Below, in pieces: positions 7,310 through 28,287 of a DNA stretch of 64,000 nt. A model generated the notes under the pieces. That model searched no databases. It saw only the letters and a list, made by a program, of their open reading frames with translations, and was not told the origin of the DNA. The stretch is from the NCBI GenBank assembly GCA_938084685.1, contig CALKGE010000001.1, positions 434,001-498,000 of the forward strand. Reading direction: 5' to 3'. The translations under genes were made by a program, and so were the position numbers. Origin of the DNA: an uncultured Pirellulaceae bacterium. Lineage in GTDB: Bacteria > Planctomycetota > Planctomycetia > Pirellulales > Pirellulaceae. Position 1 is the first letter of the stretch, and the number at the start of each line of letters is the position of its first letter.

Positions 7310-9769
7310 ATGCAATTTCGTAACCTGCGTAAAACGTATGTGTTAATGGTAGCCAGTTTGCTCTGGAGTGGTTTAGCCACCGTGGGCCTGCAGGCGGAAG
7401 AAGCTCAGCTCGAGCGGATTGAAGTCTATCCTGCTGAAGTGCAGTTGACTGGTGTGCGAGAGCAGGCCCAGTTGGTTGTGACGGGGCATTTTGCGGATGG
7501 TTCTATCCAGGACCTGACGCGCGCGGCTACCGTCTCGACAGCTAATGCGGAGGTGGTGACTGTTGATGGAACGGTTGCTTATCCTCAAGCCAATGGGGAC
7601 GGCGCACTGAATGTTGAAGCTGGAGGAAAAACGGCCACGGTGAAAGTGGTTGTGACGAATCAGGATCAGCCTCAACCGGTCTCTTTCCTGTACGATACGT
7701 TAGCTGCATTGAGTAAGAATTCGTGTAATGCCGGTGCCTGCCATGGTTCGCCAAGTGGAAAAGGAGGTTTTCGTTTATCGCTACGAGCCTTTGATCCAAA
7801 GCTGGATGAACTGACTCTCATCCGGGAAGATTTTGGCCGTCGTACCAATTCACTGGATCCAGAAAACAGCCTGTTGTTGCTCAAGCCACTGATGAAAGTC
7901 GCTCATGGAGGGGGTCGGCAAATTCGCGCGGGCGATCCTGCTTACGCCGTGATTCGGGACTGGATTGCGGAGGGGTGCAAAATGGATACTGCCGAGGCGG
8001 CTCGTCCGGTGAAAATCGAAGTTTATCCGAAGTCCGGCCGAGTATTAAAGAAACCCGCGATGCAGCAGCAGCTCAGTGTGTGGGCCCATTTTTCCGATGG
8101 AAGTGTCCGCGACGTAACTCCGTTGGCCGTCTTCTCCAGCTCTGATGTGGAAGTTGCTGATGTGGATCGTAATGGATTAGTTGAAGGACTCAAGCGAGGT
8201 GAGGTCGCTGTGGTTGTTCGCTATCTTGAGTTCATCGAGTCGAGTTTCATTACGTTTGTAGAGGATGTCGAGAATTTTGTCTGGAACGATCCTCAAGTTA
8301 ATAACTATATCGATGTTGCTGTTGACGACAAACTCAAGCAATTAAAGTATCTGCCTTCCGACTTGTGTACGGATGAGGAATTTATTCGTCGTGTTTACCT
8401 GGATGTCATTGGTATCCTGCCGACGCTGGAGGAAGTGACCGCATTTGCGGCGGATGAAGATCCGGCCAAACGTGACAAGACGATCGACAGTTTGCTCGAT
8501 CGATCCGAGTTTTCCAAGTTTTGGGCTCTTAAATGGGGTGACTTATTACGTTTGACCAGTGGCCAGGTGACCAACGAAGGTGTGTATAAATACTATCGCT
8601 GGGTGGAACGGTCTTTCCGGGAAAACCAGCCCTATGATGAATTTGCCACGGAACTGCTTACGGCAACGGGAAGTACATTCAGTAATCCGGCAGCTAATTT
8701 TTATCGCACGTCGAAGGATATGAATGACTGCGTCGAAACAATCTCGCAGGTGTTCCTCGGCGCACGTTTGCAATGTGCCAAATGTCATAATCATCCGTTT
8801 GAACGCTGGACGCAGGATAACTACTATGGCATGGCAGCATTTTTCAACCGGGTGCAACGAGCCAACACGAAGCGTGCTAATGAGATGTTTATCTACGTTT
8901 CTCAAAGCGGGGAAGTTACGCAACCTCGTACTCAACAGCAGATGAAACCATGGGCGCCGGGTGTAGGAGACATTGAGGAACCCAACGAGTTTGATCGACG
9001 AATCGACTTTGCCAACTGGTTAACCAAACCAGACAACCCTTACTTTGCCAAGATTGAAGTAAATCGCATTTGGAGCCAGGTCTTTGGGCGAGGAATCGTT
9101 GAGCCGGCAGATGATTTCCGCGATACCAATCCACCCAGTAATGCCGTATTGCTGGATCAATTGGCAAAGGATTTCGTTGAGAACGGCTATGACCGGAAAA
9201 AAATACTGGCGACGATCCTGAAAAGCCGAACCTATCAGACCAGCTATCAGCCAAATGAATTTAACGAGGACGATACCAAGTACTTCTCGCACTATCAGCC
9301 TCGATTATTGTCAGCCGAACAGCTGCTCGATGCGATCTGTCATGTAACTCAGGTAGCAGAGTCCTTTGGTGGTTTGCCTCCCGGAACGAAGGCAACCCAT
9401 TTGCCGGCGCCGGATCTGGTGAATAACGAGTTTCTCAAGATCTTTGGTCAGCCAGAACGTCAAACGGTATGTGCTTGTGAGCGTACCAATGAATCCAACC
9501 TGAGTATGGCGATTCAGTTTTTCAATGGTCCGTTGATTTACAACAAACTGAAAAACGAATCCAATTCGTTCCGTAAGTCGATTACGGCAGGAGAAGATGA
9601 CACGCAGATTATCACTCGACTCTATAACCTGGCGGTTTGCCGAAATCCAAGTGAAACGGAATTGAAAGCCAGCCTGGATCACATTGCGTCCAAAGAGAAC
9701 CGGGTAGAGGCATTGGAAGACATTTGCTGGGCGATTCTTAATACCAATGAATTCCTGTTCCAGCACTAA
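7310..9769 (+). CDS. Secreted DUF1549/DUF1553 protein with Ig-like and cytochrome-type motifs
   Basis: The protein has 819 residues with a signal peptide ending near LQAEE. In order: a BIG2-like Ig domain (about 35-115), a cysteine motif CNAGACH (C139, C144, H145), a second Ig-like domain (about 230-310), DUF1549 (about 330-550) containing CAKCH (C489-H493), and DUF1553 in the last third. CAKCH is a canonical CxxCH haem-attachment motif; CNAGACH has four residues between the cysteines. RBS AAGGA sits about 10 bases before the ATG. These proteins are hallmarks of Planctomycetes and are suspected to be envelope haem proteins; their role is unproven. It is probably in an operon with both neighbours. 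Confidence 0.85.
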   Translation: MQFRNLRKTYVLMVASLLWSGLATVGLQAEEAQLERIEVYPAEVQLTGVREQAQLVVTGHFADGSIQDLTRAATVSTANAEVVTVDGTVAYPQANGDGALNVEAGGKTATVKVVVTNQDQPQPVSFLYDTLAALSKNSCNAGACHGSPSGKGGFRLSLRAFDPKLDELTLIREDFGRRTNSLDPENSLLLLKPLMKVAHGGGRQIRAGDPAYAVIRDWIAEGCKMDTAEAARPVKIEVYPKSGRVLKKPAMQQQLSVWAHFSDGSVRDVTPLAVFSSSDVEVADVDRNGLVEGLKRGEVAVVVRYLEFIESSFITFVEDVENFVWNDPQVNNYIDVAVDDKLKQLKYLPSDLCTDEEFIRRVYLDVIGILPTLEEVTAFAADEDPAKRDKTIDSLLDRSEFSKFWALKWGDLLRLTSGQVTNEGVYKYYRWVERSFRENQPYDEFATELLTATGSTFSNPAANFYRTSKDMNDCVETISQVFLGARLQCAKCHNHPFERWTQDNYYGMAAFFNRVQRANTKRANEMFIYVSQSGEVTQPRTQQQMKPWAPGVGDIEEPNEFDRRIDFANWLTKPDNPYFAKIEVNRIWSQVFGRGIVEPADDFRDTNPPSNAVLLDQLAKDFVENGYDRKKILATILKSRTYQTSYQPNEFNEDDTKYFSHYQPRLLSAEQLLDAICHVTQVAESFGGLPPGTKATHLPAPDLVNNEFLKIFGQPERQTVCACERTNESNLSMAIQFFNGPLIYNKLKNESNSFRKSITAGEDDTQIITRLYNLAVCRNPSETELKASLDHIASKENRVEALEDICWAILNTNEFLFQH

Positions 9770-9797
9770 GAACTAACTCGAGAGTATTATCAGACAG

Positions 9798-11129
9798 ATG
9801 AATAAGTTTTCCCTATCCCTTTGTGTTGCAGCACTTTTATTACCTTCTTTAAATGCTCAGGATGCGGTCAGTTTCAAAGCCGACATTGCTCCGATTCTGA
9901 TCAACAATTGTCTTGCCTGCCACGGCCCGAAAAAGGCAGAAGGCGGATATCGTGTTGACACGTTTGAGCGGTTTTTGCGGGAGGGAGATTCCGGGGCAGC
10001 AGCCATTACGGCTGGAAATCATGATGAGAGCGAATCTCTGCGTAGAATTAAGTCAGAGGACGAGTTCGAGCGAATGCCGCTCGAAAACGATCCCCTCGCC
10101 GCAGCGGAAATCGAGCTCATTGAAAAGTGGGTCACCGAGGGTGCAAAATATGACGCGGAAGACCCTAAAGCGTTTCTGTCAACCATCGTTCCGGCACCGA
10201 CACATCCGACACCGCCGGAAGTTTATCCCCTTACTGTCCCGATTACGTCAGTAGCATTCAGTCCTGACGGCAGCCAGGTCGTGACAGGTGGCTATCACGA
10301 AGTCGTTCTGTGGAATGCCACTGACGGTACGCTTGTAAAGCGAATTCAAAATGTGGGCCAACGTACATTTGCACTTCGCTTCAGTCATGATGGTCAGCAT
10401 CTCGTTGCAGCGGGAGGTGCTCCGGGAAAGCTTGGTGAAGCGCGTATTTTCGATGCGGCTTCCGGTGACCTGGTGACCGTTTTAGGTACGACGTCTGATG
10501 TTGTATTGGATGTACAGTTCAGTCCGGCTGGTGATCGCCTGGCGATTGCCGGAGCAGATAGTACGATCAGAATTTACGAGTTTCCGGCGGGTAACCTGGT
10601 ACGTGCGATTTCCAGTCACTCGGACTGGATCATGGCCGTTGCCTGGGATAATGAAGGGAAGCGTCTGGCGTCCGCGTCACGTGATAAGACAGCCAAGTTG
10701 TTTGATGTGGAGACCGGTGAGTTGCTGGTGACCTACAGTGGGCACAACAATCACGTGAAAGGGGTGGCTTTTCACCCGGACAATCAGCATATCTATACCG
10801 CCGGTGGAGATAAAAAGGTTCACTGGTGGAAAGCTGCTGACGCGAAGAAAGTTGGAGAGCTTGCTCAGGGCGGAGAAGTATACAAGTTGGAAAAGATCGG
10901 TGGCGTGATTACAACGTCTTCGGCCGATCGAACAGTCCGTCAGATCGATGCCGCCACGCAAAAAGAGGTGCGTAATTATGGTGGACATGCCGACTGGACT
11001 CTGTCATCGGCATTCCATGAGTCGACCAAACGGATTGCCGGCGGTGCTTTCGACGGCGCCGTAAAGATTTGGAATACCGAAGATGGCGCAGAAGTAATCT
11101 CCTTTGTTGCGGCTCCGGGTGCGAAATAA
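9798..11129 (+). CDS. Secreted planctomycete cytochrome C (PSCyt1) and WD40-repeat protein
   Basis: The 443-residue protein has a short signal peptide (LLLPSLNAQ), then a PSCyt1-type domain with CLACH (C38 to H42) as a single c-type haem site followed by PKKAEGGYRV. From about residue 145 to the end there are six or seven WD40-like repeats (for example VAFSPDGSQVVTGG and VKIWNTEDG), forming a beta-propeller. It probably sits in the periplasm, and it may interact with the DUF1549/DUF1553 protein encoded 28 bases upstream. The substrate or electron partner is unknown. Confidence 0.85.
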   Translation: MNKFSLSLCVAALLLPSLNAQDAVSFKADIAPILINNCLACHGPKKAEGGYRVDTFERFLREGDSGAAAITAGNHDESESLRRIKSEDEFERMPLENDPLAAAEIELIEKWVTEGAKYDAEDPKAFLSTIVPAPTHPTPPEVYPLTVPITSVAFSPDGSQVVTGGYHEVVLWNATDGTLVKRIQNVGQRTFALRFSHDGQHLVAAGGAPGKLGEARIFDAASGDLVTVLGTTSDVVLDVQFSPAGDRLAIAGADSTIRIYEFPAGNLVRAISSHSDWIMAVAWDNEGKRLASASRDKTAKLFDVETGELLVTYSGHNNHVKGVAFHPDNQHIYTAGGDKKVHWWKAADAKKVGELAQGGEVYKLEKIGGVITTSSADRTVRQIDAATQKEVRNYGGHADWTLSSAFHESTKRIAGGAFDGAVKIWNTEDGAEVISFVAAPGAK

Positions 11130-11134
11130 CCTGG

Positions 11135-11764
11135 ATGCCGTCATTGCAATGGAATGGCCCTCAATCCGCGGATTGGGTTCTGGTTCTTGCTCATGGTGCC
11201 GGAGCAGGCATGGATTCGCCGTTTATGCAGACCATGGCAGAATCTCTGGGACAACACCGTATCCGGGTGGGGCGCTTCAATTTTCCCTATATGGTGCGCG
11301 CCATTAGCGAAGGTAAACGCAGGCCTCCCGACTCGGCTTCCAGGCTTTTGGATTCGTGGGCAGAGGTGGTCGAGGAAGTCGCTGCAAAACTGAAGCCAGG
11401 CCAACGATTGGCGATCGGTGGGAAATCCATGGGAGGCCGGATTGCTTCGATGTCGACACAGCTGGACCCAGTCAGCGCATTGGTTTGTCTCGGGTATCCC
11501 TTTCATCCCCCCGGGAAGCCAGAGAAATTACGCACGGAACATTTTTCAACAATCCAGGTGCCTACGTTGATTCTCCAGGGAGAGCGGGATCCGTTTGGCA
11601 ACGGAGAGGAAGTTCGGCACATGAAGTTTCCAGGTCACTTCAAAACAATTCTGCTTGCCGATGGTGACCATAGTTTCAAGCCGCGGAAAGCGTCAGGCAG
11701 GACGCTCCAGCAAAACATGGAGCAGGCAACGATGGCGGTGGTCGAGATGTTAAGGTCGTGTTGA
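11135..11764 (+). CDS. Small alpha/beta-hydrolase of the KAN/TEX30-like type
   Basis: The protein has 209 residues when started at the ATG at 11135, six bases after the previous stop; the longer frame in the track overlaps the WD40 gene and is unlikely. A GKSMGG nucleophile elbow, LQGERDPFG for the acid and ADGDHSF for the histidine form a complete triad. LAHGAGAGMDSPFM near the start is typical of COG3571-like predicted hydrolases. It lacks a signal peptide, so it is cytoplasmic. Its 3' end overlaps the end of the convergent oxidoreductase gene by 15 bases. The substrate is unknown. Confidence 0.75.
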   Translation: MPSLQWNGPQSADWVLVLAHGAGAGMDSPFMQTMAESLGQHRIRVGRFNFPYMVRAISEGKRRPPDSASRLLDSWAEVVEEVAAKLKPGQRLAIGGKSMGGRIASMSTQLDPVSALVCLGYPFHPPGKPEKLRTEHFSTIQVPTLILQGERDPFGNGEEVRHMKFPGHFKTILLADGDHSFKPRKASGRTLQQNMEQATMAVVEMLRSC

Positions 11765-13549
11765 CGAATCTGGCAAAAAGCCCGCTTCGTCCCATCCCCG
11801 TTCCAGGTTATACGCTTTTACAAGAGCTTCCAGCGTCTGACGGTTTAGCACGGCATCTGTGTCATCCTCCAATGCTGTTGTCAGCATGCGTTCGGGCAGA
11901 GTGTCTTCTGCGGGTGTCCAGCCGCTGAGGATGTTGAAATGTTTTTTGGTGTTGACGATCGCTTCAGCTGCTCGCACCATCTGCTCGGCATTCAAATTCC
12001 AACCGGTTACCAGATTAAGCATGCTTGCACATTCCGCAAAATAATCGTCAAATACGCCACGCAGGAATTTGCAGAGGATAAGTGAATCCATCATGGCGGC
12101 TTTGTTTTCCGTCTCTACCGCAAGACGAGCCTGACTCACTTTGGCATGGCGGCGGTCGACATGTTCCGAGAAGTCGACTTCATAGGCACCGCTACGGTTG
12201 TGATCGGCTCCCCGGGTCCCCACGGCAAAACCAAGTGCCATGGTTTGTAGTGCTCGAGGTTCGTAGCCAGGCAGTTCCAATCCTTTCACCTGAGGGGCGA
12301 ATGAGATCGTGTTATGCCCCAGTTCCATTGCCAAAGCGCGACTTCCTTTCGCCAGCGAGATACCAAGTGACTTTTGCTGTCCGATCAGGTGGATCGCCTT
12401 GTGCAGAGCTTCACCGCTGCCAAAGCGAAGCCATGGTTCCTGAAGATAACCCTGCTCCACACACTCCATGGCAAATGCGATAGTTCCCCCGGTGCTGATA
12501 GTGTCGAGACCGTAATGATCGCACAGGTGGGAAGCCTGCAGGACGATTTGCTGATCGCTGATTTCACAAAGCGGTCCTAGTGCAAACAGATTTTCGTACT
12601 CAATACGAGTTTGGGATGGTTTACCGTCGACGGGAATGGAATAGATGTGAGTACATCCAATTGTGCAGGCGGCACAACTTTCACGCATTTTGTCCCGCAC
12701 AGCATTCATGGCTTCCGGAGACAGATTTTCTGCGTTTTCAAAAGAACCTTTTTGAAAATTACGAGTGGGTAGGCAATGAAGTCGGTTGAAAACGAGTACG
12801 TTCGCTGCCGTACCTAACTCACGATATTTCTCTGTGGCTGGCCCGAAGGATCGCTGGGATAAATTCCGTGCCTGTTGAACGAGTCCCTGAGTGTCAAACC
12901 AGGAAGTTCGCTGGTCACCACGCACGGCAATCGCCTTGATGTTTTTGGAGCCAAGCACCGCGCCGCTGCCACCACGGCCCGCATGGCGTCCGCTGTGCGA
13001 GATGGTCGCATATCTGACAAGGTGTTCCCCGGCCGGGCCAATAACGGCAAATGAGTATTCCTGACCGAATGCGGTTCGCAATTGTTGCTCCGTCTGTTCG
13101 GCAGGCAGTCCGCAGAGATGATCGGCCGGCTGTAGCGTAACATGGCCATTGTCGATGACGAGTATGGATGGCGACTCTGCCCGACCAGTGATGAGCAGTG
13201 CATCATAGCCGGTTCGTTTTCCAGCAAGGGCAAAACGACTACTCGCAAGCGAGTCATTGATACGGCCGGTCAAAGGGCTGCGGCTGACGACGGCGAATTT
13301 GGCGCTGGTAGTGAGAGGGCTGCCGACGAGAGGGCTGAAGGCAAAAACAATACTAGCCTGAGAAGACAAGGGATCATGCTTCCATGCTTCATGTTCCATC
13401 AGGAGATGGGTACCAAGCCCGCTTCCACCGATCATCTGTTGTAAAACGTCGGCTTGCAATGGATGGCAGCTTGCCGCCCCAGAGGTGACATCGATTTCCA
13501 GATAGCGGTAATGATAGCCGTGTGCTTCACTCACGTTAGCCACCCGCAT
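11750..13549 (-). CDS. Aldehyde:ferredoxin oxidoreductase family protein (tungsten/molybdenum pterin enzyme)
   Basis: The protein has 599 residues, the normal size for the AOR family, which oxidises aldehydes to acids using a bis-pterin W (or Mo) site and one 4Fe-4S cluster. Seen here: the N-terminal pterin domain (FSPLVGSPLTTSAKF, RSPLTG), the AGRGGSGAVLGSKNIKAI loop, the cluster cysteines C292-x2-C295-x3-C299 with a later LILCKF as the fourth, and the GTRGADHNRSG segment. The usual glycine-rich SGG of the first domain is replaced by ASSR. The substrate is not predictable. The start codon lies inside the end of the MoaD-like gene, a 14-base overlap indicating translational coupling. Confidence 0.88.
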   Translation of the reverse strand: MRVANVSEAHGYHYRYLEIDVTSGAASCHPLQADVLQQMIGGSGLGTHLLMEHEAWKHDPLSSQASIVFAFSPLVGSPLTTSAKFAVVSRSPLTGRINDSLASSRFALAGKRTGYDALLITGRAESPSILVIDNGHVTLQPADHLCGLPAEQTEQQLRTAFGQEYSFAVIGPAGEHLVRYATISHSGRHAGRGGSGAVLGSKNIKAIAVRGDQRTSWFDTQGLVQQARNLSQRSFGPATEKYRELGTAANVLVFNRLHCLPTRNFQKGSFENAENLSPEAMNAVRDKMRESCAACTIGCTHIYSIPVDGKPSQTRIEYENLFALGPLCEISDQQIVLQASHLCDHYGLDTISTGGTIAFAMECVEQGYLQEPWLRFGSGEALHKAIHLIGQQKSLGISLAKGSRALAMELGHNTISFAPQVKGLELPGYEPRALQTMALGFAVGTRGADHNRSGAYEVDFSEHVDRRHAKVSQARLAVETENKAAMMDSLILCKFLRGVFDDYFAECASMLNLVTGWNLNAEQMVRAAEAIVNTKKHFNILSGWTPAEDTLPERMLTTALEDDTDAVLNRQTLEALVKAYNLERGWDEAGFLPDSSTRP

Positions 13550-13811
13550 CCATGGAAAGGATCAGCAGGGCATCCCCATCCCGGGCCGTCCCATTTTCGG
13601 TTTGATAGAATCGTGTGCCGTTAAGATTGACCGTCAGATGCTGGTTAAGACGGTCTCCTGCCATACAGTTCCGCTGAAATTCAGGATGTTTCCGTGCAAC
13701 GGCGAGGATGACATCATGAATTTCCATTTCCTCCTGATCAAATTCATAGACTTCACTGGCGATTCCAACACGCTGGCGCGGAATGCCGTAATACTCAATT
13801 TTGATTTTCAT
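13536..13811 (-). CDS. moaD: MoaD/ThiS-family small sulfur-carrier protein
   Basis: The 91-residue protein has a beta-grasp pattern and ends in a C-terminal diglycine (LILSMDAGG), the site of thiocarboxylate formation in molybdopterin synthase small subunits. Because it overlaps the AOR-family gene, it most likely serves assembly of the pterin cofactor of that enzyme; a ThiS-like role is less likely. The codons for the two glycines lie within the first codons of the oxidoreductase gene. It is divergent from the DUF1080 gene across about 167 bases. Confidence 0.78.
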   Translation of the reverse strand: MKIKIEYYGIPRQRVGIASEVYEFDQEEMEIHDVILAVARKHPEFQRNCMAGDRLNQHLTVNLNGTRFYQTENGTARDGDALLILSMDAGG

Positions 13812-19427: not shown

Positions 19428-19784
19428 ATGTCCAAAACTTACATCATCATTCCTGGCCGTACTAGTCAGCAGGGAGTGGGTATTAATGAAGGTAAGTTTG
19501 AAGAGACCTATCAAAGCGAGATTTCCGTTTTGCAAGTTTCTGAAGAGGATATGGCAGAGCTTGAGCTGGAGGCAGGAGACTGGGTTCGCGTAACAAGCGA
19601 ACACGGCCAGATTGAAATCCGGGTTAAAGCGGCAAAGAAAGGTGAATTACCTGCCGGGCTGTTATTCATTGCTTATGGTGACTATTCAAGTCGACTGATG
19701 GGCGCTGACACGCATGGCTCCGGGATGCCAACAAGTAAGGGATTTGACGTGACGATGGAAAAGATCGCTGCTCCTGTGGAGTAG
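19428..19784 (+). CDS. fwdD: Formylmethanofuran dehydrogenase subunit D (molybdopterin dinucleotide-binding)
   Basis: The protein has 118 residues from the ATG at 19428; the 14-residue upstream extension in the track does not look native. It begins with IIPGRTSQQGVGINEGKF and ends with the block GADTHGSGMPTSKGFDVTME, both characteristic of FwdD/FmdD, the small barrel that closes over the pterin dinucleotide of the catalytic subunit. The enzyme interconverts CO2 or formate-level carbon and the N-formyl group on methanofuran-type carriers. It is the first gene of the fwd series, 138 bases ahead of fwdB. Its presence argues that the complex binds metal. Confidence 0.85.
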   Translation: MSKTYIIIPGRTSQQGVGINEGKFEETYQSEISVLQVSEEDMAELELEAGDWVRVTSEHGQIEIRVKAAKKGELPAGLLFIAYGDYSSRLMGADTHGSGMPTSKGFDVTMEKIAAPVE

Positions 19785-19922
19785 TTCCCGTCTAAGTGCC
19801 AATTAACAGGAGAAATTAACTGGAGCGAACGCTCCCGTCGGTCAGACTGATTCGTGCGAACTGGTGAAAACTGGTCAGGTCTGAACGAGTTTGATATCGC
19901 ACGCACAGTGGAGCGTAACCTC

Positions 19923-21329
19923 ATGGCTACTGTTACAACTGATGCGTCGCAACAAGAACCGGAATTAAAAGTAGTTGAAGATGCGACATGCACATTTTGC
20001 GGATGTGTCTGTGATGACATCGATTTGACTGTCAAAGGTCACGAAATCACGAAGGCTAAACGAGCCTGTGTGCTGGGAACGGCCTGGTTTCTAAACCACT
20101 CGGTGGACGATCGTCCATCCTGCCTGATTAAGGGGCAGCCTGCCTCGGTGGAAGAGGGAATTGAACGAGCCTCCCAGATTCTAACCAAGTCACGTTATCC
20201 TCTGATGTATGGTCTGAGTGATACGACGAGCGAAGCGCAGCGAGTGGCGGTCAGTATCGCCGACTGGGTGGGAGCGAATCTTGATACAACTACCTCTGTT
20301 TGCCACGGTCCGTCGGGAATGGCGTTTCAGGGAGTTGGTGAAGTAACCTGCTCGTTAGGCGAAGTTCGCAATCGGGGAGACATGATCATTTTCTGGGGAG
20401 CCAATCCTGCTGAAAGTCACCCTCGTCACTTTACCCGTTACAGCTTGATGCCCAAGGGAATGTTTGTTCCTAATGGCCGCAAGGATCGTACGTGCGTGGT
20501 GATCGACGTTCGTAAAACCAAATCAGCCAATACTGCTGATATCTTCATTCAGCTTAAACCCCGTTCTGATTTCGAGGCGTTGTGGGCGCTGCGTGCATTA
20601 GCAGCTGGAGTCGAACTGGAAGCTGCGCAGGTATTGGCAGACACAGGAGTCGAGCTTGCGGTCTGGCAGGATCTCATGGACCGCATGAAGGCGTCACGTT
20701 TTGGCGTGTTCTTCTTTGGAATGGGATTGACGATGACTCGGGGTAAGCATGCCAACACCGAAGCACTGCTCGAATTGACTCGGGATATGAACCGTCACAC
20801 TCGATTTGTCTGTAAGCCGAATCGGGGGCATGGCAACGTGACGGGAGCCGATAATGTGGTGGCCTGGAGAACCGGTTATCCATTTGGCGTGAATTTAGCT
20901 CGCGGTTATCCTCGCTTCAACCCGGGTGAATACACGGCCTCGGATGTTCTTGCCCGGCAGGAAGCAGATGCGGCGATTATTATCGCCAGTGACCCGATGG
21001 CGAATTTCAGCGAACCCGCACGTCAGCATTTGAAGTCCATTCCCTACATCGCGTTTGATCCTAAGGAGACGCCGACGACCAGACATGCCGAAGTTGCGTT
21101 CACGGTAGCAACCTATGGCATTAATGTTCCAGGGACAGTCTATCGAATGGATGACATACCGATTTCTTTAAGACCAGCTTTTGAGTGCCATCATCCGGCC
21201 GATCTGGAGATTCTTCAGAGAATTGAAAAGCGGGTCCAGGAATTGATTGCTCTGGAAGCTCCGGCTGAGAATGATAATTCCAGTTTGCGGCCAGCGCGTG
21301 ATTTAGCGAACGGGGTCGCTGCCGAGTAA
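19923..21329 (+). CDS. fwdB: Formylmethanofuran dehydrogenase subunit B (catalytic Mo/W subunit)
   Basis: The protein has 468 residues from the ATG at 19923, chosen over the track start because the extra 23 residues are unlike the family. Near the N-terminus CTFCGCVCDD gives C23-x2-C26-x3-C30 for a 4Fe-4S cluster, with a further cysteine in RACVLG. C127 in TTSVCHGPS is at the position of the metal-ligating cysteine of archaeal FwdB. WGANPAESHPRH and NRGHGN are further family blocks. In methylotroph Fhc complexes the B subunit is reported to have lost metal binding, so the intact cysteines here are notable. It probably works with FwdA, FwdC and FwdD in the cytoplasm. Confidence 0.88.
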   Translation: MATVTTDASQQEPELKVVEDATCTFCGCVCDDIDLTVKGHEITKAKRACVLGTAWFLNHSVDDRPSCLIKGQPASVEEGIERASQILTKSRYPLMYGLSDTTSEAQRVAVSIADWVGANLDTTTSVCHGPSGMAFQGVGEVTCSLGEVRNRGDMIIFWGANPAESHPRHFTRYSLMPKGMFVPNGRKDRTCVVIDVRKTKSANTADIFIQLKPRSDFEALWALRALAAGVELEAAQVLADTGVELAVWQDLMDRMKASRFGVFFFGMGLTMTRGKHANTEALLELTRDMNRHTRFVCKPNRGHGNVTGADNVVAWRTGYPFGVNLARGYPRFNPGEYTASDVLARQEADAAIIIASDPMANFSEPARQHLKSIPYIAFDPKETPTTRHAEVAFTVATYGINVPGTVYRMDDIPISLRPAFECHHPADLEILQRIEKRVQELIALEAPAENDNSSLRPARDLANGVAAE

Positions 21330-21812
21330 TCGCCGTAGCATGCCAAGTTGTCCTGCGTGTAACATTTCGTGATGAGCGCAGAAAATGAGGCACCCCAGTT
21401 TGGTGGGATAGGCAGCATACGGATCTTCGACAGGCTCGTTTAATTGCTCGAGAGGATACGTAGCGAGTTCTTCCATCGACTGATTGTAAACTCGTTCAAA
21501 CACATTCAGGATCTCATCGGGAGCCGGATAGAACTCTGGATCCTGACGAGGAGTGGAGCCACGAGAGAATTTTTTTCGAAACGCTGAAGACATCAATTCG
21601 GTGTCTTCCAGTTTTCGACCGCGTTGGCGGAAAAGCACCAGGCCGTACTGAGCCATGGCGAGGTGCCCGACCTGCCAGGCAACATGATTTAACCCTTCAA
21701 TGGGTTGTCGAAACCAGTCGTTTTGGCCGATACCATCCAGTAGAGAATGGGTGTATTGACGAGCAGCAACGATTTGATCGACGGCCATTTGAAGATTTGC
21801 GGAATTGGACAC
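21303..21812 (-). CDS. DinB-family four-helix protein
   Basis: About 169 residues from a GTG at 21812; an ATG at 21788 is a possible alternative, and the track start at 21974 would overlap fwdA. The sequence LNHVAWQVGHLAM and the late HHEMLHAGQLGMLRRLLG are the DinB/YfiT-like helices carrying the histidines that bind metal. Members are thiol-dependent transferases or damage-inducible proteins of unclear role. It lies antisense between fwdB and fwdA and overlaps the fwdB 3' end by 27 bases. Confidence 0.75.
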   Translation of the reverse strand: MSNSANLQMAVDQIVAARQYTHSLLDGIGQNDWFRQPIEGLNHVAWQVGHLAMAQYGLVLFRQRGRKLEDTELMSSAFRKKFSRGSTPRQDPEFYPAPDEILNVFERVYNQSMEELATYPLEQLNEPVEDPYAAYPTKLGCLIFCAHHEMLHAGQLGMLRRLLGSDPVR

Positions 21813-21862
21813 GGACTTCTTTTCTGCATGAAAATAACGACTCAGGTTATTGGTAAAACCAC

Positions 21863-23533
21863 ATGACGACAGCGTACTTAAAACTTGCCGGTGGATATGT
21901 TTACGATCCAATAAATGGCGTGGACGGTCAAGTACAGGACATTTGGATCCAGGACGGTAAGATCGTGGATCCACCCGGTCCGGGAGTTCGCGCTGGTCGT
22001 GTCATCGATCTGGCTGGATACGTGGTGATGCCTGGCGGAGTTGATATGCATTGTCATATCGCTGGTCCCAAAGTGAATATGGCTCGTAAAATGCGTCCTG
22101 AAGAAAAGCGGCGCGATGAAGTTATTGAGCGAACTCAGAAGACACACAGTGGAACAATGGGTAGTGTTCCCAGCACCTTCGCGACCGGGTACAAGTATAT
22201 TGGTCTGGGATATACGACTGCTTTTGATGCCGCGGTTCCTCCGATGTCGGCACGGCACGCCCATGAAGAATTTGAAGATACTCCCTGTATCGACAAAGGA
22301 TTCTATGTGCTCACCGGGAACAATCACTTCGTGATGAAATCGATTGCTGACAATGAACCGGCAAAACTCAAGGGATTTGTGGCCTGGTTGCTGGGCGCCG
22401 CCAAGGGATACGCTCCGAAGCTCGTCAATCCAGGAGGAGTTGAAGTCTGGAAGCATCATCCGCGAGGTAATGTGGATACGGTCGACCAGATGGTTGACCA
22501 CTATAACGTGACTCCTCGCCAGATCATCTCGGAATTAACTCGTACCGCCAACGAAATCGGATTACCCCATCCCGTTCATATTCATTGCAACAATCTGGGA
22601 ATGCCGGGGAATTATTCAACGACGCTCAATACGATGGATGCGTTAAATGGTCATAACGGCCATATTACTCACATTCAATTCCACAGTTATGGTGGTGGGG
22701 AAGGCGAAGAAGAGACCTTCTGCAGTCGGGTGCCCGAGCTGGTCGAGTATGTGAATTCGCATGAGAACGTTACGGTGGACGTTGGTCAGGTCATGTTTGG
22801 CGAGACGACCAGCATGACCGGTGACGGCCCGTTGGGTTATTACCTGCACAACGTTTATGGAACCAAGTGGTTCAGTGCTGATACTGAACTGGAATCGGGT
22901 TGCGGTATCGCTCCGATCAAATACCGAAACAAAAGTCTGGTGCATGCGCTGCAGTGGGCGATTGGTTTGGAGTGGTATCTGTTGGTGGATGACCCTTGGC
23001 GAGTGGTCATGAGTACGGATCATCCTAACGGAGGCTCTTTCCTGGCCTATCCTCAGATCATTCGACTGTTAATGGACAGCACTTACCGCAAGGAAGTATT
23101 GAAGACGGTACATCCTGAGGTGATGAATCGTTGCATCCTGGCGGATCTGAAACGGGAATATACGCTTAACGAGATCTGTATTATCACTCGCAGTGGTCCG
23201 GCAAAAATCCTGGGGCTCAAGAATAAAGGGCATCTAGGAGCTGGAGCGGATGCAGACATTACGGTGTACCTGCCTCATGAAAACAAAGAGACCATGTTTG
23301 AATTGCCAAAATACGTGATCAAGTCCGGAATCGTGGTTGTGGAAGACGGAGAGATTCGTGAGCCACTTCTCGGGAAGACATTACATGTTGATCCGGATTA
23401 TGACAAAGAAATTGAAGGAGATATCTCGAATTGGTTCGAAGAGTATTACTCGATCCGATTCCGAAACTACCCGGTACAGGATGGTTACTTGCACGACGCC
23501 GAAGTTGTGGAGTGCGATCCTGATGCGAGTTAG
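21863..23533 (+). CDS. fwdA: Formylmethanofuran dehydrogenase subunit A (amidohydrolase subunit)
   Basis: The 556-residue protein is of the amidohydrolase superfamily. The first metal motif is GVDMHCHIAGPKVNMARKM, later histidines are in HPVHIHCNNLGMPGN and HITHIQFHSYGGG, and the catalytic aspartate region is VVMSTDHPNGGSF; these match FwdA/FhcA. The subunit transfers a formyl group between formate and the C1 carrier using a binuclear metal site. It starts 51 bases from the divergent DinB-like gene and overlaps the convergent mobA by four bases at the stop codons. Confidence 0.92.
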   Translation: MTTAYLKLAGGYVYDPINGVDGQVQDIWIQDGKIVDPPGPGVRAGRVIDLAGYVVMPGGVDMHCHIAGPKVNMARKMRPEEKRRDEVIERTQKTHSGTMGSVPSTFATGYKYIGLGYTTAFDAAVPPMSARHAHEEFEDTPCIDKGFYVLTGNNHFVMKSIADNEPAKLKGFVAWLLGAAKGYAPKLVNPGGVEVWKHHPRGNVDTVDQMVDHYNVTPRQIISELTRTANEIGLPHPVHIHCNNLGMPGNYSTTLNTMDALNGHNGHITHIQFHSYGGGEGEEETFCSRVPELVEYVNSHENVTVDVGQVMFGETTSMTGDGPLGYYLHNVYGTKWFSADTELESGCGIAPIKYRNKSLVHALQWAIGLEWYLLVDDPWRVVMSTDHPNGGSFLAYPQIIRLLMDSTYRKEVLKTVHPEVMNRCILADLKREYTLNEICIITRSGPAKILGLKNKGHLGAGADADITVYLPHENKETMFELPKYVIKSGIVVVEDGEIREPLLGKTLHVDPDYDKEIEGDISNWFEEYYSIRFRNYPVQDGYLHDAEVVECDPDAS

Positions 23534-24207
23534 TTTGCCGACTTGAACTGTGCTAGAACTCTGGAGTCCGGTTCGAAACCGGCCTGTTTCAGAGCGGCAA
23601 GGTAGTCGTCCGGTTCATTGATATTGATCAAACTGGACAGATGCGGGTCAGCACCCAGCAGATCCTGAGTGGATACGGTGACCGTATCGATCAGGTCGAA
23701 TAAGAACAAAGGTCGTCGTTTATCAGCGTCCAGCAGTGAGTCAATCACTGGAATGAGGGAGGTACGATATACGGCAGCCAGTGGATGGCGAAACCCGTCT
23801 TCCACAACCACGGCAGCGTCGGCGTCGCCGAGTCTGTCAGCGACAGCACTGACCCAAGCAGGCTGAAGCAGTGGAACGTCACAACTGGTAACGTATGCGG
23901 CTTGTGTCACTGGAGCATCCTTTTCAGGGAACTGTTCCACAGCAGCGAGCCCCATACGAATTCCTTCCAGGGGTCCTTGTCCGGGCGAACGATCCTGAGT
24001 GATCAGGATATCGTCTGGTAACACGGGCAAGGATTGATTGTCGGCCTTGACGACGGCAATCGGTTTGGTGACTTCCGACATGATGCGAACAACCCGTTGC
24101 AGCATGGTTTCCTTACCAAACGGTAATAAAGCTTTGCTCAGCCCCATACGACGGCTTTTTCCGCCACAAAGGACAATTCCGGCGATTGGTTGTTGTAAAT
24201 TGGTCAT
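23530..24207 (-). CDS. mobA: Molybdenum cofactor guanylyltransferase
   Basis: It transfers GMP from GTP to molybdopterin to form MGD, the cofactor form used by FwdB-type enzymes. The protein has 225 residues with the nucleotide-binding opening GIVLCGGKSRRMGLSKALLPFG, a TQDRSPGQGPLEGI block and the acidic AYVTSCDVPLL motif for metal binding. It lies convergent with fwdA and divergent from fwdC (76-base shared promoter region). The position inside the fwd series supports a dedicated cofactor supply. Confidence 0.88.
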   Translation of the reverse strand: MTNLQQPIAGIVLCGGKSRRMGLSKALLPFGKETMLQRVVRIMSEVTKPIAVVKADNQSLPVLPDDILITQDRSPGQGPLEGIRMGLAAVEQFPEKDAPVTQAAYVTSCDVPLLQPAWVSAVADRLGDADAAVVVEDGFRHPLAAVYRTSLIPVIDSLLDADKRRPLFLFDLIDTVTVSTQDLLGADPHLSSLININEPDDYLAALKQAGFEPDSRVLAQFKSAN

Positions 24208-24283
24208 TCCATCCCCTAACCAAGAATCCAGTATATAGAGTTTATAATTCCCCGCGAGTTGTTTTTACAGATAAGAACGATCC

Positions 24284-25099
24284 ATGACTCTGGAACTTAC
24301 TTACCAAGGCAATACGACGATCCCTCTTGAAATCGAAGGGATTAACCCTGATACGGTTGAGCAATTAACGATTGCGGAAATCGAAAAGCTACCGATCTTT
24401 CACGGTAAAGACAAATGCGTGCTTGCTGATTACTTCAAGGTGAGTGGAGACGCAGCAGACCAGCATATCAATCTGAGTGGTCAGCTTGCCGGAGTGCATT
24501 GGATTGGTACGAAGATGGAGCGAGGTACGATCACCATTGAGGGTGATTGTGGTCGGCATCTGGGTAGTGAGATGCGAGGTGGCACGATTACAGTGCAGGG
24601 TAATGCGAGTGACTGGATTGGTGCAGAAATGAGGGGCGGTCACATTCGGGTTCACGGTAATGCAGGACATCAGGTTGGAGCAGCCTACCGCGGAAGTGAG
24701 CGAGGAATGAACCGGGGGACGATCATCATTGACGGAAACGCCGGTAACGAAATCGGCTTAACCATGCGGCGCGGATTGATTGTGATTGGAGGCAACGCAG
24801 GTGATCTCGTCGGCTTTCGCATGCTGGCCGGTACGATTCTGCTGTGCGGAGAATCTGGGATCCGTCATGGAGCGGGTATGCGTCGCGGTTCCATTATCTT
24901 TATGGGGGACCAACATCCGCAACTGTTACCCAGCTTCCGGCACGCGGTAAACTATCAACCCGAGTTCATGAAAGTGCTTCTGCGAAAACTCCGTCACAGT
25001 GGATTTGAAGTGCCCGATGATTTGCTTGATGCTTCCTATGATCTGTTTCATGGCGATATGATCGAAGGTGGACGGGGCGAGATTCTGCTGCGAAGGTGA
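24284..25099 (+). CDS. fwdC: Formylmethanofuran dehydrogenase subunit C
   Basis: The 271-residue protein is built largely of GxGxG-type repeats (for example GTITIEGDCGRHLGSEMRGG, GNASDWIGAEMRGG, GNAGHQVGAAYRG), forming the right-handed beta-helix common to FwdC and glutamate synthase C-terminal domains. It is a structural subunit bridging FwdA and FwdB. It is the last fwd gene seen; formyltransferase (ftr/fhcD) is not in this window, nor are polyferredoxin subunits. Confidence 0.9.
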   Translation: MTLELTYQGNTTIPLEIEGINPDTVEQLTIAEIEKLPIFHGKDKCVLADYFKVSGDAADQHINLSGQLAGVHWIGTKMERGTITIEGDCGRHLGSEMRGGTITVQGNASDWIGAEMRGGHIRVHGNAGHQVGAAYRGSERGMNRGTIIIDGNAGNEIGLTMRRGLIVIGGNAGDLVGFRMLAGTILLCGESGIRHGAGMRRGSIIFMGDQHPQLLPSFRHAVNYQPEFMKVLLRKLRHSGFEVPDDLLDASYDLFHGDMIEGGRGEILLRR

Positions 25100-25120
25100 T
25101 TCGTGTTCCGGGGTAAAGCA

Positions 25121-27040
25121 TCAAGGTTGCAGGCCCAGCTTTGCCAGTTGTTCTTGGATCTCGCTGCTCTTCAAGGCATGCAGAAAGGCTGTTACGGCCG
25201 GTTTATCCCGACGAGCAGCCGGGAGGATGAAATCGAACTCTTCGTCCGCTACCGGCAGGAAACCCAGTACAGGACTAACGACACCCTGAATGGCCACGCC
25301 CCAGTCGGCAGATCCATGCTCCACACTGGCAGCTACTGCATGGTGGCTGCGGGACTGAAAGGAATAACCCGTTGGTAATTGCGTCTGGCCTTCGAGTAGT
25401 TGATCGATCAGGATTCTGGTACCACTCCCCTGATTACGATTAACCATATGAATCGATGGGTCGTTACAGACCAGCCTTATCAGTGCCTCGAGCGATTTAT
25501 CACGGAACCGCGGATCGTCTTTTCTGAAAATAATGCCCTGGGTCCTTTTGTAACCTTTGATCAGCTCCAGCGAGTCGTCGAGTAAATGCTGGTTGTACGC
25601 GGTACCGGTCGAGTCGAGTAAATGGACGCCGGCAATATCGCACTCTCCCCGCCGCACCGCTTCGACTCCTCCAGTCGAACCGACGGTCATCAGTTTGCTG
25701 TGGATGCCTGTTTGCTGAATGGTTGAGAGAATTAGATCCAGCCCCACACAGTGGCTTCCAATAACCACCAGGTCCGCCAGAGGAAGTTGCCGGCCCAGCA
25801 GAGTTACATTGACAACAGCGTCTTTGTCCAGAATCTCCTGGTGCCGATCTATCGTGATAAATCCGTCTGCGTGGCTGAATGTGGTGACACTTCCACTTCC
25901 TTTTCCCATAGGGTAGGCGACCAGCTTTCCATCGTGGTGGCGCTGGACCAGACTAACAAGTAGATATTCTGTTCGGCCGATTTCCGAACGTATTTTGACT
26001 GCCATTTGGGCATCGAGCTGAGTTTGGTCGGCGGGTGTATTACCGGCCAGTTGCCGAATGACGGGTGCCACGAATTCGTGAAAAGTGAAGATTGCGGAAG
26101 TTGGAAATCCTGGCAGAATGACGACCGGTTTTTGTTGGGTGGCAGCTAAGCAGACAGGTTTGCCCGGTTTGAGAGCAACTCCATGAGCCACGATTCCGGG
26201 GTCGTCGAGTTCCGCGACGACCTGATAGGAAATATCTCCTTCTCCCTTACTCGTCCCGCCCGACAACAGAACAACATCGTAACTGGCAATTGCTTCTGAC
26301 AAGTGTTGTTGCAGTTGCTGCTGATCGTCCTGCACAACTCCCAGACTGACAGGTTGCCCTCCCAGTTCGGTGACAGCATCTGCGAGGATTCTGGCATTGG
26401 AATCGAAGACCATCGCCGGCTGCATCGTTTCGTGCGGTGGGATAATTTCGTCGCCAGTGGATATAATCCCCACTTTCGGTTTGCGGTAAACCGGTACTTC
26501 AGACTGACCGATTGCGGCCAGAACCCCTGTTTCACGGCTGGTGAGAACCTGACCCTGGCGGAGGACGATTTCACCCGCGGTAATGTCAGAGCCGGCGAAG
26601 GAGATTCCAAAACCGGCGTTGACAGCTTTACGTACGATCAGACTGTCGCCGACGACATCGGTGTATTCGATCATGACAATGGCATCCGCGCCCCTGGGAA
26701 TCATGCCTCCAGTGGCGACGCTCATGGCATCACCGCAATGGACTTCTGTTTTGGGAACGACTGCGGTTGCGATGGTCTCGTCAAGTACTGTCAGCCGGCA
26801 GGGCAATTCCTCGGTCGCCGAGTGGGTGTCGACCGCCTTTACTGCGTAACCATCATAGTTGGATCGGTGGAAGGATGGCACATTGCACGGAGAGTGAATA
26901 TCCTGAGCCAATGTACGCCCCAGCGCGTCCTTTAACGGGACCAACTCTGGGGCCAGCGGCGTGAGATCGAGCGCACGATGAAAACGTTGTTCCGCTTCAT
27001 CGCGATTGATTACTTCCAGAAACTGTCGTTGTTCGGCCAT
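25121..27040 (-). CDS. moeA: MoeA-type molybdotransferase fused to a periplasmic-binding-protein-like domain
   Basis: The protein has 639 residues. Residues 1-410 are MoeA: HRSNYDGYAVKA, the MoCF loop VGIISTGDEI, LLSGGTSKGEGD and VILPGFPTSAIFTF. From about residue 415 follows a substrate-binding domain like those of molybdate or LysR-type sensors (LDLILSTIQQ, MTVGSTGGVEAVRRGECDIAGVHL, GTRILIDQLL). MoeA inserts Mo or W into adenylated molybdopterin; the fused domain may bind the oxyanion or an effector, without a signal peptide. Similar fusions occur in archaea and anaerobes. It sits two bases after the single-domain moeA. Confidence 0.9.
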   Translation of the reverse strand: MAEQRQFLEVINRDEAEQRFHRALDLTPLAPELVPLKDALGRTLAQDIHSPCNVPSFHRSNYDGYAVKAVDTHSATEELPCRLTVLDETIATAVVPKTEVHCGDAMSVATGGMIPRGADAIVMIEYTDVVGDSLIVRKAVNAGFGISFAGSDITAGEIVLRQGQVLTSRETGVLAAIGQSEVPVYRKPKVGIISTGDEIIPPHETMQPAMVFDSNARILADAVTELGGQPVSLGVVQDDQQQLQQHLSEAIASYDVVLLSGGTSKGEGDISYQVVAELDDPGIVAHGVALKPGKPVCLAATQQKPVVILPGFPTSAIFTFHEFVAPVIRQLAGNTPADQTQLDAQMAVKIRSEIGRTEYLLVSLVQRHHDGKLVAYPMGKGSGSVTTFSHADGFITIDRHQEILDKDAVVNVTLLGRQLPLADLVVIGSHCVGLDLILSTIQQTGIHSKLMTVGSTGGVEAVRRGECDIAGVHLLDSTGTAYNQHLLDDSLELIKGYKRTQGIIFRKDDPRFRDKSLEALIRLVCNDPSIHMVNRNQGSGTRILIDQLLEGQTQLPTGYSFQSRSHHAVAASVEHGSADWGVAIQGVVSPVLGFLPVADEEFDFILPAARRDKPAVTAFLHALKSSEIQEQLAKLGLQP

Positions 27041-27042
27041 GA

Positions 27043-28287
27043 TTATTCGTACAAGTATACTGTGACTTCCGAGTTCCGGGCATAGCCTTCGAGATCTTCA
27101 GGAATAATGACAAAGCCGCTGGCGCGTGTGGTGCTGCTGAGGACACTTGCACCGCTAATAGCGATGGGCTCTACCTGATCGTTGTGAACATGGACTCGCG
27201 CGTAATCAGTACGACCTACTGTGGAGACAAGTTTTCTGGATAGTGGCAGGTTGATAGTACGGTGGGGCCAGGTTGTCGGTAGTCCGGCGAGTTGGCGGAT
27301 AGCGCGGCCGGCAAAAAAATCATAGGCGCAGAGGCAGGAAACCGGATTACCAGGCAATAGAAATACAAGTCGTTTTCCCAGTGTCCCCATACCGCTTGGA
27401 CTGCTGGGCCGCATGGCCACACCGTGAATGTCCAATGACCCGTGTTCTGCCAGTAAACGGGGGGCGTGATCTTCCTGCCCGACACTCGAGCCCCCCGAAA
27501 CCACAATCACGTCGGCATCGGACTGCAAGGCTGCGAGAATGCTTTCAGGATGATCTGAAATAATCCCGGGATGCAGAACCTGCCCGCCGTCTCTGTGGAC
27601 CAATGCAGATAGCATGGGACTATTGGCATCCGCGATCTTGTACTGGTCGGGAGTGGTTCCGGGGGGCAATAATTCGTCGCCGGTGATCACCAATCGTACT
27701 TGTGGTTGCTTGATAACTTCAACAAGCCGGATGCCAATAGAACTCAGAATCCCCAGATCCTGTGGCCGAAGTTTTCTACCCTGTGGTAGGACCTGTTTCC
27801 CAGCTTGAATGTCTTCGCCAGGAAGTCCCACATGTTTTCCGGGAGCAACTTCTCCTTGAACCAGTATGGATTTTTCCTGGATGACAGTCTGTTCTACTGG
27901 CAGGACAGCGTTTGCACCGGCAGGCATCGGCGCCCCGGTCATAATTCGAATGGCTTGCCCAGAAGTTATACTGGCGTGAAACGGATTTCCGGGTAGTGAT
28001 TGGCCAAGAATATCGAGTGTCAGGCTGTTATAGGTACTGGCTCCGGAGGTATCCTCTCCGACAACGGCAAAGCCGTCCATCATCGCTCGTGAAAAATGAG
28101 GCACATCAACCTCACTAGTTATCCCAGTACCCAGAACGCGTCCATAGGCCTCCTGAAGGTCAACCTTTTCCGTTTTTGATTCCGGAATATGTTCGTCGAT
28201 CCAGTCGAGGCAGTTCTGAACTGTCCAGCGGCGCGCAAATCCCTTCATGCGAACGTCGGTCGGGCGATAGAGTGGATCTTGAGTCAT
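27043..28287 (-). CDS. moeA: Molybdopterin molybdotransferase MoeA
   Basis: The 414-residue protein has the normal four-domain MoeA layout: DVPHFSRAMMDGFAV near residue 68, GAPMPAGANAVLPVE, the metal-insertion loop LVITGDELLP, IVVSGGSSVGQED and LLPGNPVSCLCAYDFF. It works in the final step of Mo or W insertion. It is one of two adjacent MoeA proteins, so the pair may split Mo and W or form a heteromer. It follows the Hsp70-like gene by eight bases and precedes the fused moeA by two, all on one strand. Confidence 0.92.
   Translation of the reverse strand: MTQDPLYRPTDVRMKGFARRWTVQNCLDWIDEHIPESKTEKVDLQEAYGRVLGTGITSEVDVPHFSRAMMDGFAVVGEDTSGASTYNSLTLDILGQSLPGNPFHASITSGQAIRIMTGAPMPAGANAVLPVEQTVIQEKSILVQGEVAPGKHVGLPGEDIQAGKQVLPQGRKLRPQDLGILSSIGIRLVEVIKQPQVRLVITGDELLPPGTTPDQYKIADANSPMLSALVHRDGGQVLHPGIISDHPESILAALQSDADVIVVSGGSSVGQEDHAPRLLAEHGSLDIHGVAMRPSSPSGMGTLGKRLVFLLPGNPVSCLCAYDFFAGRAIRQLAGLPTTWPHRTINLPLSRKLVSTVGRTDYARVHVHNDQVEPIAISGASVLSSTTRASGFVIIPEDLEGYARNSEVTVYLYE

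Follow-up and report, generated by a model that had tools for sequence, protein, structure and literature searches.

Gene content of the locus

The window, the whole 64,000-nucleotide stretch of DNA analysed here, belongs to a genome that is 89.75% complete and carries four fwd genes, named after the subunits of formylmethanofuran dehydrogenase (FMD). The original prediction placed fwdD, fwdB, fwdA and fwdC on the plus strand, alternating with mobA and two moeA genes on the minus strand, and all seven genes were recovered at these places and on these strands. The fwdD gene (19428-19784, plus), whose presence had been correctly recognised and whose product is the predicted second half of the metallopterin-binding unit, has a Molydop_binding match, and its closest model is NF042908 (75.8 bits, below the cut-off of 175); judged by its sequence, the product is a clear homologue although it falls under the curated cut-off of this archaeal tungsten-FwdD model. 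The catalytic subunit gene fwdB (19923-21329, plus) matches TIGR03129 with 491.9 bits (cut-off 327.8), and since its best start is the ATG at 19923, the earlier numbering of Cys127 is correct. The fwdA gene (21863-23533, plus; TIGR03121, 755 bits) encodes a predicted binuclear-metal amidohydrolase of formyl-methanofuran hydrolysis or condensation, and fwdC (24284-25099, plus; TIGR03122, 268.6 bits) a subunit with the GXGXG fold. On the minus strand lie mobA (23530-24207), a housekeeping gene for molybdopterin guanylyltransferase assigned by domain and family matches, a moeA gene with a C-terminal PBP_like domain (25121-27040; PRK14498, 708 bits) and a second moeA assigned by its family match (27043-28287). 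The third MoeA copy of the genome is located outside the window at C1:821681.

Two further features, a DinB-superfamily ORF and an AOR-moaD pair (11750-13811, minus), were not part of the original prediction, the pair lying outside its coordinates. The DinB-superfamily ORF (21303-21974, minus; PF12867) lies between fwdB and fwdA in antisense orientation, extends into the 5' end of fwdA and is kept in 16 of 80 loci of relatives. The first gene of the pair (11750-13549, minus) encodes a 599-amino-acid protein of the aldehyde:ferredoxin oxidoreductase (AOR) family, with both the AFOR_N and AFOR_C domains (PF02730 and PF01314) and the cluster cysteines, the motif ESCAACTIGC being kept, and it matches 1AOR with E=3.5e-97. 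Nearly all known AOR-family enzymes are tungstoproteins (PMC6147048), and the window protein is predicted to be a tungsten-type aldehyde enzyme. Beside it, a MoaD-like small protein of 91 amino acids with a GG terminus (13536-13811, minus) shows a weak match to TIGR01687, below the cut-off, and matches the MoaD structure 1vjk with E=6e-4.

Metal-site residues and predicted fold

The window FwdB aligns with FwdB of the tungsten enzyme from Methanothermobacter wolfei (5T5I_B) with E = 2.2e-109, and every ligand position is kept. Cys23, Cys26, Cys30 and Cys49 align with the [4Fe-4S] cluster cysteines Cys9, Cys12, Cys16 and Cys35, Cys127 with the metal ligand Cys118, and His128, Arg301 and His303 with His119, Arg288 and His290, respectively. 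The claim that FwdB retains its cluster cysteines and Cys127 for the metal is thus borne out, and a mismatch of Cys127 with the metal-ligand position, named beforehand as an observation that would count against a metal site, was not seen in this sequence alignment. The AlphaFold2 model of FwdB (mean pLDDT 80) gives TM-scores of 0.81-0.82 with solved FMD B subunits and about 0.61 with the metal-free FhcB of Methylorubrum, so that the predicted fold is closer to the metal-bearing B subunit than to the metal-free one. The comparison with FhcB that had been proposed therefore places the window protein with the metal type by its residues as well as by its model (TM 0.81 versus 0.61).

The His, Lys and Asp ligand motifs of FwdA (beginning at residues 61, 186, 239, 270 and 384) align with 5T5I_A, as does the proposed gating Lys. 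FwdA with its binuclear-metal ligands and FwdC, as well as the FwdB cysteines, ligand and histidines and an FwdD subunit, which are among the marks of formylmethanofuran dehydrogenase, are all found in the window; two marks of the formyltransferase-hydrolase complex (Fhc), the lack of an FwdD-type subunit and the loss of metal-site residues from the B subunit, are not.

Two types of B subunit in Planctomycetes

A class-wide scan covered 110 genomes, namely the window's own and others of at least 95% completeness. Strong FwdB/FhcB matches were found in 101 of 110 genomes, and the high-scoring metal type (at least 468 bits, counted from the score list) in 32 of 110, of which 12 encode Cys and 20 have an in-frame TGA. 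A first phylum-wide sample had suggested that the metal type is rare, and this was overturned by the class-wide count. At the loci examined the in-frame TGAs sit exactly at the ligand position, which indicates selenocysteine (Sec). In the residue comparison, where the Cys type was defined by at least 62% identity to the window sequence, the complete ligand-His-Arg-His set is present in 90 of 91 Cys-type, 20 of 20 Sec-type and 1 of 32 FhcB-like sequences; the residue in the single Cys-type exception is undetermined. The Cys/Sec-His-His triad is kept in 110 of the 111 metal-type sequences. The search patterns contained three of the cluster cysteines, so that their conservation partly reflects selection, while Cys49, Cys127, His128 and His303 lay outside the patterns.

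FhcB-like sequences keep the four cluster cysteines wherever the alignment covers them. Either their ligand position holds a gap or one of G, S, E, Q, Y and F, or the Cys is kept and His303 is replaced by P, Y or Q. The ligand Cys alone was accordingly rejected as a marker of the metal type, as several FhcB-like proteins keep it but lack both His303 and FwdD. In the tree, the Sec-type sequences form a single group with support; branches are short in the Cys type and long in the FhcB-like sequences, and the window FwdB is on a slowly evolving branch. The tree is midpoint-rooted, so no direction is claimed from it alone. At one locus (L165, G282:C360) a Sec-type FwdB is directly followed by a second, Cys-containing FwdB-like gene with the full triad, the only FhcB-like-scoring sequence of this kind. 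Planctomycete-like FwdB proteins are also carried by loci labelled Euryarchaeota (L075, 80% identity) and Acidobacteria (L145, 71%), reflecting either mis-binning or transfer.

FwdD follows the B-subunit type and is its most telling marker. In a genome-wide search FwdD was found in 17 of 41 genomes, namely 16 with a metal-type B subunit and G292, in which fwdD and fwdB are fused in one frame; the 24 genomes that lack it possess FhcB-like B subunits only. The association (17/17 versus 0/24) gives a Fisher p=7e-12, uncorrected for relatedness, and such p-values overstate independence because the genomes in these co-occurrence tests are related. The fused B subunit of G292 retains the ligand Cys and carries Tyr in place of His303; by identity it groups with the FhcB-like sequences. 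The fusion gene itself (L186, G292:C2, ~9210-10952 of the locus, minus) encodes ~580-596 amino acids, and no other FwdD occurs in that genome. In G235, a complete genome from the window's family, the same locus holds a VWA protein and two purine nucleoside phosphorylases followed by fwdB; fwdD is missing both at the locus and genome-wide, and FwdB is degenerate. The Cys type of FwdDB is widespread in Planctomycetes and correlates cleanly with the metal-site residues. Steps between a dehydrogenase and a metal-free hydrolase can thereby be followed within the phylum as a natural series, one of them a locus that has lost fwdD in place.

Conserved gene order around fwdDB

Neighbours were clustered around fwdDB at 80 named planctomycete-type loci. 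An AOR-family protein is present at 34 of these, usually together with a MoaD-like gene (26 of 80), and lies within 1.2 kb of fwdD at 21. The order fwdA (plus), mobA (minus), fwdC (plus) recurs at 15 relatives' loci, and mobA sits inside the cluster in other orders at 4 more; this recurrence indicates that the interleaving is not due to chance. The complete order AOR, fwdD, fwdB, fwdA, mobA on the opposite strand, fwdC, moeA-PBP and moeA is found at L145, with variants at many others. The arrangement moaD-AOR-fwdDB-fwdA-mobA-fwdC-moeA-moeA is a recurrent island, of which no description was found in a literature search of partial coverage. None of fwdD, mobA, moeA and AOR occurs within ~10 kb on either side at 26 FhcB-like loci. 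Among the clustered neighbours of the 80 loci there is no conserved ferredoxin or flavoprotein as electron acceptor, and the ferredoxin subunits FwdF and FwdG are found neither in the window cluster nor as a conserved neighbour family. In the complete genome G249, AOR and fwdD remain together (C1:1018383-1019888 and C1:4702276 for the two separated parts) at a distance of 3.7 Mb from fwdB, which points to an old AOR-fwdD junction.

Distribution of cofactor genes and choice of metal

MobA is present in all 33 genomes searched, including those without FwdD, with one good match in nearly all. It is therefore not diagnostic of Fwd, and its candidacy as a dedicated supplier of the MGD cofactor form to Fwd, together with the earlier use of mobA as a pointer to a metal-active enzyme, had to be abandoned. 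Three MoeA copies occur in 12 of 13 AOR-positive genomes (2 in the remaining one) and in 0 of 20 AOR-negative genomes, which have 1 or 2. Three MoeA are also found in each of the genomes that combine AOR with only an FhcB-like B subunit (G024, G137, G194), against one or two in Sec-type Fwd genomes lacking AOR. The extra moeA pair is accordingly assigned to AOR in the first place, and the two moeA genes were rejected as Fwd-specific factors. Apart from FwdB itself, the FwdB model detected a single MopB protein in the window's genome, an FdhF/YdeP-family molybdoenzyme (L003, G000:C3, ~286.4-288.5 kb); it has Cys at the ligand position, and its gene neighbours an aldehyde dehydrogenase-like gene. 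The molybdenum-cofactor genes of the genome thus have another client.

Whether such an enzyme carries tungsten or molybdenum cannot be told from its sequence (PMC11656701). AOR is found in all 10 Cys-type genomes tested, in none of 6 Sec-type and in 3 of 24 FhcB-only genomes, and on this distribution tungsten may reasonably be guessed as the metal of the Cys-type Fwd. We infer that use of tungsten by the window Fwd is plausible, though unproven, and more likely than that of molybdenum. The linkage of AOR and MoeA may provide a genomic marker for tungsten use beyond what the enzyme sequence gives.

Pathway context and interpretation

The genome encodes one Ftr (on another contig; the counterpart of the Fhc subunit FhcD), one Mch and one Fae, the last adjoined by a methylene-H4MPT dehydrogenase (Mtd); the ftr, mch and mtd-type genes proposed for a search elsewhere in the genome were thus all located, along with Fae. 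No second FwdB or FhcB was detected in the genome by the FwdB model search. The genome also possesses COX1, a haem-copper oxidase. Planctomycetes with FhcB-like B subunits share the Fae-Mch pathway. In methylotrophs the last step of formaldehyde oxidation is carried out by the metal-free Fhc, and formate is released.

The fwdABCD genes would encode a true metal-dependent formylmethanofuran dehydrogenase. FwdB and FwdD would hold a bis-pyranopterin metal with Cys127 as its ligand and an electronic connection to one [4Fe-4S] cluster; FwdA would hydrolyse formyl-methanofuran to formate at its binuclear metal site, and a putative internal tunnel would pass the formate to FwdBD for oxidation to CO2. 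The direction is most likely oxidative, with Fwd closing the H4MPT-linked route of formaldehyde oxidation (Fae, Mtd, Mch, Ftr, Fwd), and formaldehyde oxidation ending in CO2 via Fwd is the simplest reading of the pathway genes. The nearby AOR, the MoaD-like protein and the two extra MoeA would form, together with Fwd, a tungsten-cofactor island. Taken as a whole, this explanation is considered probable. FMDs are oxygen-sensitive, and the occurrence of this enzyme type in the same genome as a haem-copper oxidase was counted against it, as were the absence of FwdF and FwdG from the cluster and its conserved neighbours and the presence of a second molybdoenzyme.

There is good support for the window complex being a metal-active formylmethanofuran dehydrogenase and not a metal-free Fhc, and it comes from the co-variation of residues and FwdD across Planctomycetes, not from gene layout; the original conclusion of a metal-active enzyme thus stands, and the layout with its mobA and moeA genes, on which it was partly based, does not carry it. 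A metal-free complex that merely retains old residues and releases formate could draw on the Fae-Mch pathway being the same in FhcB-like planctomycetes, on some FhcB-like subunits that retain the ligand Cys although FwdD is absent, and on a separate FdhF/YdeP-type enzyme that could be imagined to oxidise the formate. The Cys-keeping FhcB-like subunits, however, have lost His303 in all but one case and FwdD is gone, whereas the window keeps ligand Cys, His303 and FwdD on a slowly evolving branch and its modelled fold is nearer to the FMD B subunit, which makes such a complex very improbable.

That the complex is metal-dependent but uses molybdenum, with the moeA pair and AOR serving AOR only and the clustering reflecting a shared molybdenum-cofactor supply, is a possible but less than even prospect. 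It agrees with the moeA pair tracking AOR even without a metal-type Fwd (G024, G137, G194) and with the Sec-type Fwd managing with one or two MoeA; the presence of AOR in all 10 Cys-type Fwd genomes tested and the recurrent AOR-fwdD junction, found even in G249 with fwdB moved away, speak against it, as linkage and not as proof of a shared metal. Operation in reverse, in which low-potential electrons supplied by AOR or ferredoxin would reduce CO2 to formyl-methanofuran to serve assimilation or acetogenesis, is unlikely: archaeal FMDs do reduce CO2 (PMC11656701) and the AOR neighbour could exchange electrons via ferredoxin, but Fae lies next to Mtd, the genome has the full pathway for oxidising formaldehyde and the COX1 gene suggests respiration.

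A broader scheme is put forward tentatively for Cys-type planctomycetes with a respiratory oxidase. These would possess a dedicated tungsten C1 module in which AOR and a tungsten Fwd share a tungsten-loading MoeA pair and a low-potential carrier, so that formaldehyde is oxidised to CO2 and low-potential electrons are conserved and not lost as formate; the island would be ancestral in Planctomycetes, and the metal-free FhcB type would have decayed from it in place. Two questions can now be put to the test. One is whether formyl-methanofuran is oxidised directly to CO2 by a bacterial Fwd that has no ferredoxin subunits, the other whether an organism with a respiratory oxidase can harbour a working FMD.

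Comparison with known systems

The locus probably represents a planctomycete formylmethanofuran dehydrogenase of archaeal type that is embedded in a probable tungsten-cofactor island. Bacterial FwdB homologues have been counted (PMC10100899), and a 2016 opinion article stated that fwdD is absent from Planctomycetes (PMC5020050), which is contradicted by its presence in 17 of 41 planctomycete genomes. With the archaeal tungsten FwdABCDFG (Methanothermobacter wolfei, 5T5I) the window shares FwdA, B, C and D, the [4Fe-4S] cysteines, the equivalents of Cys118, His119, Arg288 and His290, and the amidohydrolase ligands; it differs in the lack of FwdF and FwdG from the cluster and in its bacterial genome with haem-copper oxidase, Fae, Mtd, Mch and Ftr. 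In 2016 a Sec-containing FmdB was described from an fmdDBAC operon of the planctomycete P2 from Porphyra, with Gly homologues in others (PMC4807772). A metal-type B and a D subunit in a planctomycete are common to both, and the Sec group is related to the window's Cys type; P2, however, has Sec where the window has Cys, and the tested Sec-type genomes are without AOR and have at most two MoeA. The actinobacterial fwdDBA-ftr-fwdC of the Hakuba SAGs, in the parts of the account available to us (PMC7325909), likewise combines FwdD, the [4Fe-4S] motif and the Cys118 ligand without FwdEFG; these are Wood-Ljungdahl pathway genomes, reportedly without methanopterin-synthesis genes, and those parts describe no AOR/MoeA/MobA island.

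FhcABCD of Methylorubrum extorquens (6S6Y) has homologous A, B and C subunits and the same place in formaldehyde oxidation. It contains neither an FwdD-type subunit nor a metallopterin, the metallopterin having been lost along with the D subunit and loop remodelling (PMC11656701), whereas in the window the D subunit is present and the metal-site residues are retained. A predicted metal-dependent complex thus stands where bacteria usually carry the metal-free version.
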